64,000 nucleotides of DNA. Origin: Corallococcus macrosporus (GTDB lineage Bacteria > Myxococcota > Myxococcia > Myxococcales > Myxococcaceae). The position numbers and the translations under genes are program-made. Shown here one piece after another: positions 46,737-54,307 of this stretch. Each line of letters starts with the position of its first letter. Position 1 is the stretch's first letter. The DNA lies in contig NZ_JAFIMU010000006.1 of NCBI RefSeq assembly GCF_017302985.1, positions 372,001 through 436,000 of the forward strand, given 5' to 3'. The notes beneath the pieces are model-generated. The model was not told the origin of the DNA and made no database searches. It saw only the letters and a program-made list of their open reading frames with translations.

Positions 46737-47945
46737 TCACTGTAGGTCCTTGAGCAGGGCCGCCTGGAGCGCCTTCCGGTTCTCGGGGAAGTGCTGGTTG
46801 GGATAGGGCCGCGCGCCGCTCAGGATGGCTTCGTACTGCGGGTACATCGGGTCGGAGCGCGCGGGTTCCTGCTGATAGAAGGCGCGGTTGGCCTGAAGCA
46901 GGTAGCGAGGCCGGGTGCCCGCGGGGCCGTCCTCACTGAAGGCGATGAGGCTGCGCGTCGCGGGGGCCTGCATGAACGACGTGAAGGCCCGGGCGTCCTC
47001 CGCGCACGTCCCGGTGCAGCTCGCGTTGAGCACCAGCGCGTCCACGAAGACCGCGGGCGCGGAGCCCGTGCCCAGCGGAACCGAGATGACCTCCGGGAGC
47101 GGCATGGAGGGATTGGCCTTGAGGATGTAGAACAGCCGCTCGGTGTAGCCCATGAAGCCGTTGGCCTGCTCCGCGGCGAAGGACTCTTCCGCCACCGAGT
47201 TGTCCGCGTAGGTGCCATCCAGGCACGGGTTCACGCCCGCCTCGAGCGAGCAGCTGTCGACGACCTCCTCGAACGCTCCCACCGTCGCGGAGTCGAGCGG
47301 CAGGGAGATGGCCTTCGCGAGCGCATCCCCCGGATGCGTGTCCGCCCAGGCATCGATGTACGAGGAAGGCAGCGTCCAGCTCCCATCGAGGTTCGTCGCC
47401 AGCGGGCGCTTGCCAGGAGCCGCCTCGCGGAGGATCCGCACCAGCGACGCGCTGTCGGTGGCCGAGCGGATGTTCGTGGTCCGCGAGTAGACGACGTTGG
47501 TGCACAGGTAGGTGGGCACGCCGTAGCTCTGGCCGTCGATGCGGACAGCCTCCTCGGCCGCGGGATGCATGACGCCCGCCTCCGGCCCGACGGGCTGGAT
47601 CCACCCCTTCGCCGCGAGCGAGCCAAGCAGCAGCGTGTCCACCTCCACCACCTGGGCGGCCCCAGCCTCCGCGCCAAGGAGCTTGTTCAGCGTCCCCCCT
47701 TCATCCAGGTCATAGACATCCAGGCTGGCGTCGAACACGACGTCCAGGTCGATCTCCGGATGGGCCTTCTCGAAGTCCGTCTCCAGCCGCTGCTCCAGGC
47801 TGGCGAAGTTGTCCCCGACGGAATCCGGGATGTATGGGAACAGGACTGCCTTCAGCGGACGCCTGGGCGTGGGGTCGGGATCAGAAGACTCCGAGCAGGC
47901 GCTCAGGAACAGGACAACGGGGAGGCTCAGGGTTCTCCAGCTCAT
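46737..47945 (-). CDS. Thiaminase I (thiamine pyridinylase)-like lipoprotein
   Basis: 402 residues from ATG 47945, the same size as Paenibacillus thiaminolyticus thiaminase I (409). Signal peptide with lipobox LSAC (Cys17), so it is anchored rather than freely secreted. Family landmarks are VLFPYIPD at 34-41, YGVPTYLCTN with Cys148 (the catalytic Cys), GFMGYTER with Glu269 (matching the catalytic Glu of IGYSES), and PRYLLQANRAFYQ. The fold is that of a group II periplasmic binding protein. It cleaves thiamine by exchanging the thiazole for another nucleophile. The neighbours give no metabolic hint. If not catalytic it could be a thiamine-binding protein, but both catalytic residues are kept. 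Confidence 0.82.
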   Translation of the reverse strand: MSWRTLSLPVVLFLSACSESSDPDPTPRRPLKAVLFPYIPDSVGDNFASLEQRLETDFEKAHPEIDLDVVFDASLDVYDLDEGGTLNKLLGAEAGAAQVVEVDTLLLGSLAAKGWIQPVGPEAGVMHPAAEEAVRIDGQSYGVPTYLCTNVVYSRTTNIRSATDSASLVRILREAAPGKRPLATNLDGSWTLPSSYIDAWADTHPGDALAKAISLPLDSATVGAFEEVVDSCSLEAGVNPCLDGTYADNSVAEESFAAEQANGFMGYTERLFYILKANPSMPLPEVISVPLGTGSAPAVFVDALVLNASCTGTCAEDARAFTSFMQAPATRSLIAFSEDGPAGTRPRYLLQANRAFYQQEPARSDPMYPQYEAILSGARPYPNQHFPENRKALQAALLKDLQ

Positions 47946-47982
47946 GACAGGTGACCTCTCTTGATTGGATGATGGTCCGACG

Positions 47983-48360
47983 ATGCGTGATCCGAAGCGG
48001 ATGCTGGCGGTGGGGGTGTTCCTGGCGGCGGTGCCCGCCTGGGCCAGTGACATGAGCGGGCTCGTCGGGCTCGTGTTGCTCCCGCCTGTCTACCTGTGGG
48101 TCCTCATCGCGGGCATCATCGGCCTGACGGTGAGCCAACCCCGCTCCGCGCGAATCTCCATGGGCGTGCTGGTCGTCGGCGGGCTCCCCGCCCTGGGCGC
48201 GGCGCTGCTCGGCATCGCCGCCTCCTTCCACGACGACGAGCTGCAGCACGAGACGATGTTCGCTTACGCGGTGGGCGCGATCGTCCTGTTGATCGCGTCC
48301 CACGCATGGGCCTTCCGGCGGCTCCTCACGCTCTTGCCGAAGCGTGAGGAGAACTCCTAG
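47983..48360 (+). CDS. Small inner-membrane protein
   Basis: 125 residues with four hydrophobic helices (signal-like first, then VYLWVLIAGIIGLTV, GVLVVGGLPALGAALLGIA and AYAVGAIVLLIASHAWAF). Loop HDDELQHE is acidic. Unrecognised. The stop overlaps that of the convergent hydrolase gene by 4 nt. Confidence 0.65.
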   Translation: MRDPKRMLAVGVFLAAVPAWASDMSGLVGLVLLPPVYLWVLIAGIIGLTVSQPRSARISMGVLVVGGLPALGAALLGIAASFHDDELQHETMFAYAVGAIVLLIASHAWAFRRLLTLLPKREENS

Positions 48361-50387: not shown

Positions 50388-50492
50388 CCGCGCGCCGGTG
50401 CCCACGGCGCGGTGCGTGATCCGCGCTGTCACCGTCGCCTTGCATGGGGGCCTCGGGGTAGCGTGCGGCCCTCTCCACGGAAGAGGGGGCCC

Positions 50493-52748
50493 ATGCGCGT
50501 CGTACCGTCCGTCCTGGAATCCGTCACCGTTCACGCCGAGGGCGCGCTGTGCACCCGCGCCCTCGTGCTCTCGCCCGAGAACGGGCGCCTGCCCGGCCAG
50601 GTCCGCGTCGACGGGCTGCCCCTCGCGCTGCGCACGGGCTCGCTGCGCGCCCGGGTGGTGGAGGGGCCATCGGGGCTCCTCGTCCGCGACCTCAAGCCCA
50701 CGTTCGACGTGCGGCTCCCGCCAGAGTCGGAGCTGCCCGCCGAGCAGCACTCGCTCGAAGCGGCGGAGGCCACGCTGTCGGCCGTGCACAGCCGGCTGGA
50801 GCGGGTGCGCGCCGAGATCCAGGCGCTCCGGGACCTGACGCCCACGTGGCCGGCCCAGCGCAAGGGCCATCCCCCGCGCGAGGCTCCGCTGACGGCGATG
50901 CTGTCGCTCACGGGCTTCGTGGACGCGGAGCTCGCGCAGCTGCAGGCCCAGGAGCTGGACCTGGCGCGCCAGCACCGCGACGCCACGAACGAACTGGAGC
51001 TGCGCCGCCGCCGCGTGCAGGAGCTGTCCTCCGCGCGGAGCGTGGACCGGGCCCGGCTGTTCCGCGCGGCGCTGCTGACGCTGTCCGGCCCCATCGCGGC
51101 GGACAGGGATGCACGGCTGCTGCTGGAGTACGCCGTGGCCGGCGCGCGCTGGGTGCCCACCTATGACCTGCGCCTGCCACGCACGCTGGAGGAAGGCACG
51201 CTGCGCATGCGCGCCGCCGTCATCCAGCGGACCGGCGAGGACTGGACGGGAGTACGCCTGTCCGTCTCCACCGCGAGCCTGGAGCGGCGCGCGGAGGTGC
51301 CGGAGCTGAAGTCGCTGCGCATCGGCCGCAGCCAGCCGCCGCCCGCGCGCTCGGGATGGCGCGAACCCGCGCCGGGCCTGGAGGAGCTGTTCGCGGGCTA
51401 CGACACCCTGCATGGGGCGCTCCCGCAGGCGGGGCTTCTGAAGCAGGCGCCCATGGCTCCGCCGTATGAGGAGGAGCCCCTTCCGGAAGCGGATGAGGAC
51501 GGCTACGAGGAGCAGGAGGTCTCCAAGGAGATGTCCACGTTCGGAGGCGCGCCAGGAGGTGCGCCCAGCGTGTCCCGCCCGCCTCCGCCGCCCGCCCCCA
51601 TGGCGGCACCGAAGTCCTCGGGCGCCTTCCTGGGCGGCGTCCGTCCCTCCGTCCCCCGCCGTAGTGAGACCGGCGCCATCCCCGAGCAAGCGCCGAGCAG
51701 GTCCGCACCCCGGGGCGGTGGCGGCATGGAGCGCATGCGCAGCAAGAAGCGCGCGGTCATGGCGGAGAGCGTCGAAGTCGCGCCGATCAAGGACCTGCTG
51801 GGCAGCGACGACGACGACGCCGGAGCCGTGGATGAGCTCAGCGGTGCGGCCAGCCTGGAGCCGGCCGACAGCCTGTTCGACTACGACTCGCTGACACTGG
51901 CCTCCGCGGCCTCCGCGGAGCAGCGGGGCCGGCTGCGTCCCCGCCCCGCGCTCGTGTCGCAGGCGATGCTGTCCTTCACCTCCGTCAACGTGCGGGTGGA
52001 GGTGGTGCGCCTGGAGGCCCAGGCCTTCACCGTCGCCGAGTCCATCCACACCGTGGCGCCCCCCACCTGGGCCGTGCCGCCGCGCGAGTCCGCCCGCCAC
52101 TTCGATGCGCGCTTCGACGCGGAGGCCGTCGCGGACGTGCCGTCCGATGGCGCCTGGCACACCGTGCCCATGCTCACGGTGCCCCTGGAGCTCAAGGCCG
52201 AGTACGTGTGCGTGCCCTCGGTGGAGCCGCGCGTCTTCCGGACGGTGCGGATGGACAACGCCTCGCCGCACCCGCTGCTCGCGGGGCCCGTGGACGTCAC
52301 GCTCGGGGACGAGTTCCTGATGACGTCCCCGCTGCCCACGCTGGGGCCGGGCGAGACGCAGCGCTTGGGCTTGGGCGTGGAGGAGGCGCTCCAGGTGGCG
52401 CGAAACACGCGCTTCGAGGAGGCCACGGGCGGCATGTTCGGCAACAGCACCGTGCTCACGCACCACGTCACCGTGGACGTGGCCAACCACCTGTCGCGCC
52501 CCGCGAACATCGTCATCTCCGAGCGCGTTGGCGCGGTCCCCGAGTCCCAGAAGGACCTCAAGGTGGAGGAGGCGGAGGTGGTGCCGCCCTGGCAGAAGCC
52601 CACGCCCCTGCCAGGTGAAGCGGCGGTGGAGGGCGAGCGCGTGTGGCGCGTGAGCGTCCCCGCCGGAGAGAAGCGTTCCATGAAGGCGACGTGGGTCGTG
52701 AAGCTGCCCGCCAGCAAGATGCTGAACGGCGGGAACCGGAGGACGTGA
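50493..52748 (+). CDS. MuiA/DUF4139-family protein with Pro-rich insert
   Basis: 751 residues. It has the DUF4140 N-terminus (SVTVHAEGALCTRAL), a coiled-coil (about 90-190) and the DUF4139 beta-rich C-terminus. A long low-complexity insert near 290-460 (acidic, Pro/Gly-rich) separates the two. MuiA was named for a mucoidy-inhibitor effect; its activity is unknown. No signal peptide is visible. The stop shares one base with the ATG of a second, shorter paralogue (TGATG), so both are coupled. Confidence 0.8.
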   Translation: MRVVPSVLESVTVHAEGALCTRALVLSPENGRLPGQVRVDGLPLALRTGSLRARVVEGPSGLLVRDLKPTFDVRLPPESELPAEQHSLEAAEATLSAVHSRLERVRAEIQALRDLTPTWPAQRKGHPPREAPLTAMLSLTGFVDAELAQLQAQELDLARQHRDATNELELRRRRVQELSSARSVDRARLFRAALLTLSGPIAADRDARLLLEYAVAGARWVPTYDLRLPRTLEEGTLRMRAAVIQRTGEDWTGVRLSVSTASLERRAEVPELKSLRIGRSQPPPARSGWREPAPGLEELFAGYDTLHGALPQAGLLKQAPMAPPYEEEPLPEADEDGYEEQEVSKEMSTFGGAPGGAPSVSRPPPPPAPMAAPKSSGAFLGGVRPSVPRRSETGAIPEQAPSRSAPRGGGGMERMRSKKRAVMAESVEVAPIKDLLGSDDDDAGAVDELSGAASLEPADSLFDYDSLTLASAASAEQRGRLRPRPALVSQAMLSFTSVNVRVEVVRLEAQAFTVAESIHTVAPPTWAVPPRESARHFDARFDAEAVADVPSDGAWHTVPMLTVPLELKAEYVCVPSVEPRVFRTVRMDNASPHPLLAGPVDVTLGDEFLMTSPLPTLGPGETQRLGLGVEEALQVARNTRFEEATGGMFGNSTVLTHHVTVDVANHLSRPANIVISERVGAVPESQKDLKVEEAEVVPPWQKPTPLPGEAAVEGERVWRVSVPAGEKRSMKATWVVKLPASKMLNGGNRRT

Positions 52749-54307
52749 TGCGCACTTCCATTCTGTTGCCCCTGGTCAAGGTGACGGTCCTGGAGGACCG
52801 GGCCCTCATCGAGCGCAGCGGCGCGGTGACGCTGCCTCCGGGCCCCTGCCGCCTCGTGGTGGACGGGCTGCCGGCGGTGGCGGTGGACCGCTCGCTCCAG
52901 GCGAAGCTCACCGGCGGCACCGTGACCCAGGCCAGCCTGCGCCGCACGATGCGCGCGGTGCTGCCCGAAGCGCTGCGCGAGCACCACTCGGAGCTGGCCC
53001 GGCGCGCCTTTGAACGCGAGCAGGTGCTGGCCCGCGCCCAGGCGGAGGTCCGTCGCCTGGAGGCGAGGCACGAGCTGCTGGAGACCGCGCGCCAGGACAT
53101 CCTGCGCGCCATCTCCGAGCGCACCGGCGCCGGTGAGGCGGATCCGGCGCAGTGGAAGGAACAGCTCGCGACGATCCGCAAGGAGCAGACCGCGGCGGAT
53201 GATCAGCTGCGCCAGGCCCGCCGTGAGCTGGGGCGTCTGGAGCGGCAGCACATCCAGGAGAGCCGCGACGTGCTGGCGCGCACGGAAGCGCCGGAGCCCA
53301 CCGTGGACGTGCGTGCGGAGCTGGACGTGAACCACGCGGCGGGCGGGGAGGCGACGTTGACGCTCAGCTACCTGGTGCCGTGCGCCGCGTGGCGGCCAGC
53401 CTACCGCGCGGTGCTGGAGAGCGCGGAGGCTTCGGCGTCCACGGTGACGTTGGAGTGCGAGGCCGTCGTCTGGCAGAACACCGGCGAGCCGTGGAAGGAC
53501 GTGACGCTGGCCTTCTCCACGGCGCGGCCCACGCTGGGGGCCACGCCGCCCCGGCTCACCGAGGACTGGCTGACCCTGCGGGACAAGACGGCGCGCGAGA
53601 AGCAGGTGGTGGACGTCTCCGTCCGCGAGGAGTCGCTGCAGGAGACGGGTGAGGCGGGGGTGAAGGCCGCGGACGCCCTGCCCGGCATGGACGACGGCGG
53701 CGAACCGGTGACGCTGTCCGCGCCGCACAAGGCCACGGTGCCCTCGGATGGCGAGGCCCACCGCGTGGCGCTGTTCTCCTTCACCGCGCCCGCCACGTCG
53801 GAGCTCGTGGCCTGCCCCGAGCATTCGCCGCTGGTGCACCGGGTGGCGCGCTTCGACAACACCGGACCGGCGGTGCTGCTCGCGGGGCCGGTGGACCTGG
53901 TGCGCGCCAATGGCTACGTGGGCCGCGCGCAGCTCAGGTTCGCGGGCCGGAACGAGCGCGTGAAGCTGGGCTTCGGCAGCGAGGACTCGCTGCGCGTGTC
54001 GCGGCAGCAGGACACGGGCGCGGAGATCGCGCGCATCACGGGCCGCCGCACCATCACGCAGAAGATGAAGTTGATCGTCTCCAACATGGGCGCGAAGCCC
54101 GCGGCGCTCGCGGTGGAGGAGCGCATGCCGGTGTCGGAGGTGGAGGCGGTGGAGGTGTCGCTGCTCAAGGACGCCACGAAGCCCGCGCCCACGAAGGTGA
54201 ACGCCGACGGCATCGTGCGCTTCGAACTGACCGTGCCGCCGCGCTCCCGGCAGACCGTGACCTTCGGCTTCGCGGTGGCCAGCACCTCGAACATCGTGGG
54301 CCTGTAG
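52748..54307 (+). CDS. MuiA/DUF4139-family protein, second copy
   Basis: 519 residues. Same layout as the preceding gene (VTVLEDRALIERSG N-terminus, central coiled coil about 75-185, beta-rich DUF4139 end), but without the long disordered insert. It ends in SNIVGL. Starts within the stop of the upstream paralogue, so they are translated together, suggesting a hetero-complex. Function unknown. Confidence 0.82.
   Translation: MRTSILLPLVKVTVLEDRALIERSGAVTLPPGPCRLVVDGLPAVAVDRSLQAKLTGGTVTQASLRRTMRAVLPEALREHHSELARRAFEREQVLARAQAEVRRLEARHELLETARQDILRAISERTGAGEADPAQWKEQLATIRKEQTAADDQLRQARRELGRLERQHIQESRDVLARTEAPEPTVDVRAELDVNHAAGGEATLTLSYLVPCAAWRPAYRAVLESAEASASTVTLECEAVVWQNTGEPWKDVTLAFSTARPTLGATPPRLTEDWLTLRDKTAREKQVVDVSVREESLQETGEAGVKAADALPGMDDGGEPVTLSAPHKATVPSDGEAHRVALFSFTAPATSELVACPEHSPLVHRVARFDNTGPAVLLAGPVDLVRANGYVGRAQLRFAGRNERVKLGFGSEDSLRVSRQQDTGAEIARITGRRTITQKMKLIVSNMGAKPAALAVEERMPVSEVEAVEVSLLKDATKPAPTKVNADGIVRFELTVPPRSRQTVTFGFAVASTSNIVGL

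Follow-up and report, generated by a model that had tools for sequence, protein, structure and literature searches.

The window, i.e. the whole stretch of 64,000 nucleotides of Corallococcus macrosporus DNA analysed here, contains on its minus strand an open reading frame (ORF) of the thiaminase type that encodes 402 aa, runs without internal stop from an ATG at 47945 to 46737 and ends with a stop codon at 46739-46737. The coordinates 46737-47945 of the initial annotation are exact, as this span is one whole ORF from ATG to stop; the strand, which was absent from it, is minus. Based on the ORF, the match to the NCBIfam model TIGR04541, the matches in the PDB, the fold and the published homologues, the gene was annotated as a thiaminase I gene of the CcThi1 type, encoding a lipoprotein precursor. 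An alternative in-frame ATG upstream would result in a protein of 438 aa. The 402-aa start was preferred because it is preceded by GAGAGG (47955-47960, minus strand), which by its sequence and its place 9 bases before the ATG is a likely ribosome-binding site, is followed at once by a lipoprotein signal, and is aligned with the start of the Corallococcus orthologues. The signal reads MSWRTLSLPVVLFLSAC, followed by SESSD. Residues 1-17 (47895-47945, minus strand) form a predicted type II (lipoprotein) signal peptide with an LSAC lipobox at residues 14-17, Cys17 as the predicted lipidated residue and Ser at +2. The LSAC lipobox is likewise present in the Corallococcus orthologues examined, and a lipoprotein signal has been predicted for CcThi1 (PMC10499793).

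The neighbours examined code for two kinases (a Ser/Thr kinase and a PAS-histidine kinase), a hydrolase-like lipoprotein and a small membrane-like protein. Neither thiamine genes nor genes for a transporter permease or ATPase were found among them, and no TPP riboswitch or other RNA was detected at the thiaminase gene within the window. Among the loci examined, the genes for the two kinases and the hydrolase-like lipoprotein stay near the homologue only in Corallococcus. The small membrane-like protein (131 aa; 47965-48360, plus strand) is encoded divergently from the thiaminase gene, has no Pfam match, and has a counterpart (67% identity) only in L002 of the loci examined. Two adjacent long ORFs of the window (50412-52748 and 52643-54307, plus strand) have translations that look related by eye; the likeness concerns N-terminal, coiled-coil and C-terminal segments and possibly reflects a tandem duplication.

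The thiaminase I HMM TIGR04541 matched residues 10-379 of the 402-aa protein with E=2.2e-13, and was matched at E≤0.001 by all 33 homologues. This model is an equivalog (thiaminase_BcmE) with a curated cut-off of 175 bits, compared to which the protein scores 49.9 bits and falls outside that narrow model; none of 195 Myxococcota genomes had a match at or above the cut-off. Pfam yielded superfamily names only, namely SBP_bac_1 (E=5.4e-9; 36.9 bits, over the gathering cut-off of 26) and SBP_bac_8 (E=3.3e-7). Read literally, these names would make the protein a plain ABC-transporter solute-binding lipoprotein that binds a sugar or thiamine without catalysis, which we consider scarcely credible. 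The SBP_bac_1 match is a superfamily likeness that is common to thiaminase I by fold and does not point to transport. For a true sugar-binding relative encoded in the same genome, the SBP_bac_1 score is much higher (128.5 bits) and the match to the thiaminase model is weak, over 70 residues. The neighbours examined offer no permease or ATPase for a transporter. Other, weak TIGR04541 matches (20-25 bits, e.g. G000:C7) extend over no more than about 70 positions of the model. The one from the host genome was discarded as a genuine sugar-binding protein according to both Pfam and NCBIfam, and the Microbacterium match L010 was likewise discarded as a carbohydrate-binding protein.

A single-sequence search of the PDB placed thiaminase I at the top, with 4kys from Clostridium botulinum (2.5e-7) and 2thi from Paenibacillus thiaminolyticus (7.5e-6), and gave a weak match to that of Naegleria gruberi (4HCW, 0.024). 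With a profile built from the 33 homologues, these matches rose to 1.8e-19 (2thi), 2.2e-17 (4kys) and 5.6e-10 (4hcw), and sugar-binding proteins lay far behind at 1e-6 and weaker. Such E-values, like that of TIGR04541, are far from what chance alone would give. An AlphaFold model of the protein (pLDDT 89.2, pTM 0.87) has a predicted two-lobed fold of the periplasmic-binding-protein type that appears nearest to the solved thiaminases. Foldseek found 4kys as its nearest structure (1.6e-20), and VIA-align superimposed 341 residues of the model both on 4kys (Z 35.6, rmsd 2.6) and on 3thi (Z 34.1, rmsd 2.8), so that the clostridial enzyme is the best match by fold as well as by single sequence. The best sugar-binding protein reached Z 32.0 and many others Z 30-32, a breadth of fold that would also suit a solute-binding protein. 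Because this small gap lies within one superfamily, enzyme and binder have to be separated by the catalytic residues. Identity to the solved thiaminases is about 20% (18-21% to 4KYS in structural alignments). The likeness to P. thiaminolyticus thiaminase I that had been noticed from the sequence is nevertheless borne out, as HMM, PDB, profile and fold searches all rank thiaminase I first.

Pairwise and profile alignments to 2THI place Cys148 (in VPTYLCTN; codon 47502-47504) at position 113, Glu269 (in GYTERL; codon 47139-47141) at 241, Asp103 (codon 47637-47639) at 64, Asp302 (codon 47040-47042) at 272 and Tyr78 at 50, all codons being on the minus strand. In P. thiaminolyticus thiaminase I, we take Cys113 to be the nucleophile and Glu241 its activator, following crystal-structure work. 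Cys148, Glu269 and the two active-site aspartates, Asp103 and Asp302, are unchanged in all 40 distinct myxobacterial sequences, at identities down to 34%. The initial proposal that Cys148 and Glu269 match the catalytic pair is confirmed by this alignment and invariance, which also argue against a protein that only binds its ligand. The Cys/Glu mechanism of thiaminase I is described in general terms in PMC10499793, where a C148A;E269A double mutant of CcThi1 is reported to be inactive, in line with a role of Cys148 as nucleophile and of Glu269 in activating this cysteine. The same invariance (40/40) holds for another four cysteines, C232, C241, C310 and C314, which the aligned places of 2THI lack; a plausible guess is that they form two disulfides particular to the myxobacterial branch.

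Most Corallococcus genomes searched encode orthologues with 82-94% identity to the window protein. Those of other Myxococcaceae are 52-77% identical, the Myxococcus-like ones about 67-73%. A second branch of thiaminase I-like proteins (L024-L028, L042, L043, L046, L047, L049, L055, L066 and L071) displays 34-38% identity and the same catalytic residues, and its members L028, L042 and L043 have no lipobox. In genome G004, which belongs to the same genus as the window, only the second-branch form L028 and no close orthologue was found; this form without lipobox agrees with a remark in the literature on non-lipoprotein members in Corallococcus (PMC10499793).

The family has been characterized experimentally. 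Xia et al. (Nat Commun 2023; PMC10499793) report the purification of CcThi1 from membranes of Corallococcus sp. EGB as an anti-Phytophthora factor; its earlier annotation was that of a solute-binding protein. They name C148 and E269 as its catalytic residues, describe the cleavage of thiamine with a Km of 22.3 µM with 4-nitrothiophenol, and report that this cleavage is lost in the C148A;E269A double mutant and that the lipid anchor is dispensable for activity. Three further homologues, namely MxThi1 (Myxococcus), AcThi1 (Archangium) and CyThi1 (Cystobacter), are described as active, and homologues are reported from 13 myxobacterial genera (PMC10499793). The reading as a plain sugar-binding protein was rejected in view of this published activity of homologues, together with the best matches and the catalytic residues discussed above. 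The window gene is almost certainly a Corallococcus thiaminase I (EC 2.5.1.2) of the CcThi1 type. It adds a further sequence to an enzyme that experiments have already characterised and whose function is known: the family and its activity were published in 2023, so the novelty suggested in the initial annotation does not hold, and the thiamine assay, the mutation of Cys148 (as part of C148A;E269A) and the starvation idea it put forward had largely been pursued on this protein family (PMC10499793).

CcThi1 (WP_223633232.1), compared here by its published description, shares with the window protein the genus, the C148/E269 numbering, the lipoprotein signal and an equally low identity to 2THI and 4KYS (PMC10499793). 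MxThi1 (MXAN_4523 of Myxococcus xanthus DK1622) belongs to another genus and is reported to be 70% identical to CcThi1, active and vesicle-borne (PMC10499793). The enzyme of P. thiaminolyticus (2THI, 3THI, 4THI) resembles the window protein in its fold, Cys113/Glu241, D64, D272 and Y50, but has only about 20% identity, is secreted in soluble form, and lacks both the lipid anchor and the four family cysteines. 4KYS and 4HCW are also reported to be soluble enzymes, unlike the lipid-anchored window protein.

Outer-membrane vesicles are reported to hold 85.6% of the extracellular thiaminase activity in strain EGB and approximately 90% in M. xanthus (PMC10499793). The idea that the lipobox holds the enzyme on the envelope therefore stands in part: the LSAC motif does point to a lipid anchor, but some 86-90% of the extracellular activity of orthologues is found on shed vesicles. 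Deletion of MXAN_4523 in M. xanthus is described as almost abolishing its antagonism of the thiamine-auxotrophic plant pathogen Phytophthora sojae, and the bacteria and fungi tested, mostly thiamine-prototrophic, as unaffected by CcThi1 (PMC10499793). The starvation of others is accordingly backed, for the orthologues, in the case of thiamine-auxotrophic Phytophthora as competitors, but not in that of the mostly prototrophic bacteria and fungi (PMC10499793).

Alternatively, the main use of the thiaminase I might be salvage: pyrimidine or thiazole would be recovered from thiamine in the environment, or from damaged thiamine analogues, and enter the cell's own thiamine synthesis. Salvage was proposed for the enzyme of Burkholderia thailandensis (cited in PMC10499793). 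The host genome has a clear thiD (343 bits), whose product can phosphorylate the pyrimidine, together with a TenA-family match that is weak (29 bits). Its one TPP riboswitch lies elsewhere, just upstream of thiC (725 bits), and the host therefore probably makes the pyrimidine itself. With thiC, preceded by this riboswitch, and thiD, it probably produces its own thiamine and could afford to have the vitamin destroyed outside the cell. The lack of a TPP riboswitch at the thiaminase gene and of thiamine genes among the neighbours examined also speaks against salvage as the main use, as does the published deletion phenotype, which is a loss of antagonism (PMC10499793); we regard this use as unlikely. 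It is similarly rather improbable that a vesicle-borne thiaminase in a thiamine prototroph serves mainly salvage or predation on bacteria, rather than antagonism of thiamine-requiring oomycetes; either may be an additional role.

By analogy, the copy of the window strain is expected to act as a thiaminase I in the way its orthologues do, in thiamine cleavage, vesicle location and antagonism. The 402-aa protein would be exported, lipid-modified at Cys17, brought to the outer membrane and released from there on outer-membrane vesicles. Within the cleft that separates the two lobes of the periplasmic-binding-protein fold, Cys148, activated by Glu269, would attack the pyrimidine of thiamine and expel the thiazole, after which an amine, a thiol or ring-opened thiamine would act as second nucleophile and free the pyrimidine. 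The depletion of free thiamine in the surroundings of the cell would then harm neighbours that are unable to make it.

The annotation 'solute-binding protein' is misleading for these enzymes, as automatic models (the TIGR04541 cut-off and the SBP names of Pfam) miss the whole myxobacterial branch. The TIGR04541 cut-off excludes every myxobacterial thiaminase found, and a proven branch hence tends to keep the name of a solute-binding protein. The function of thiaminase I had long been puzzling. Published work on the myxobacterial enzymes gives it an ecological role, the control of a shared vitamin (PMC10499793), and the window copy is one more instance of this family.
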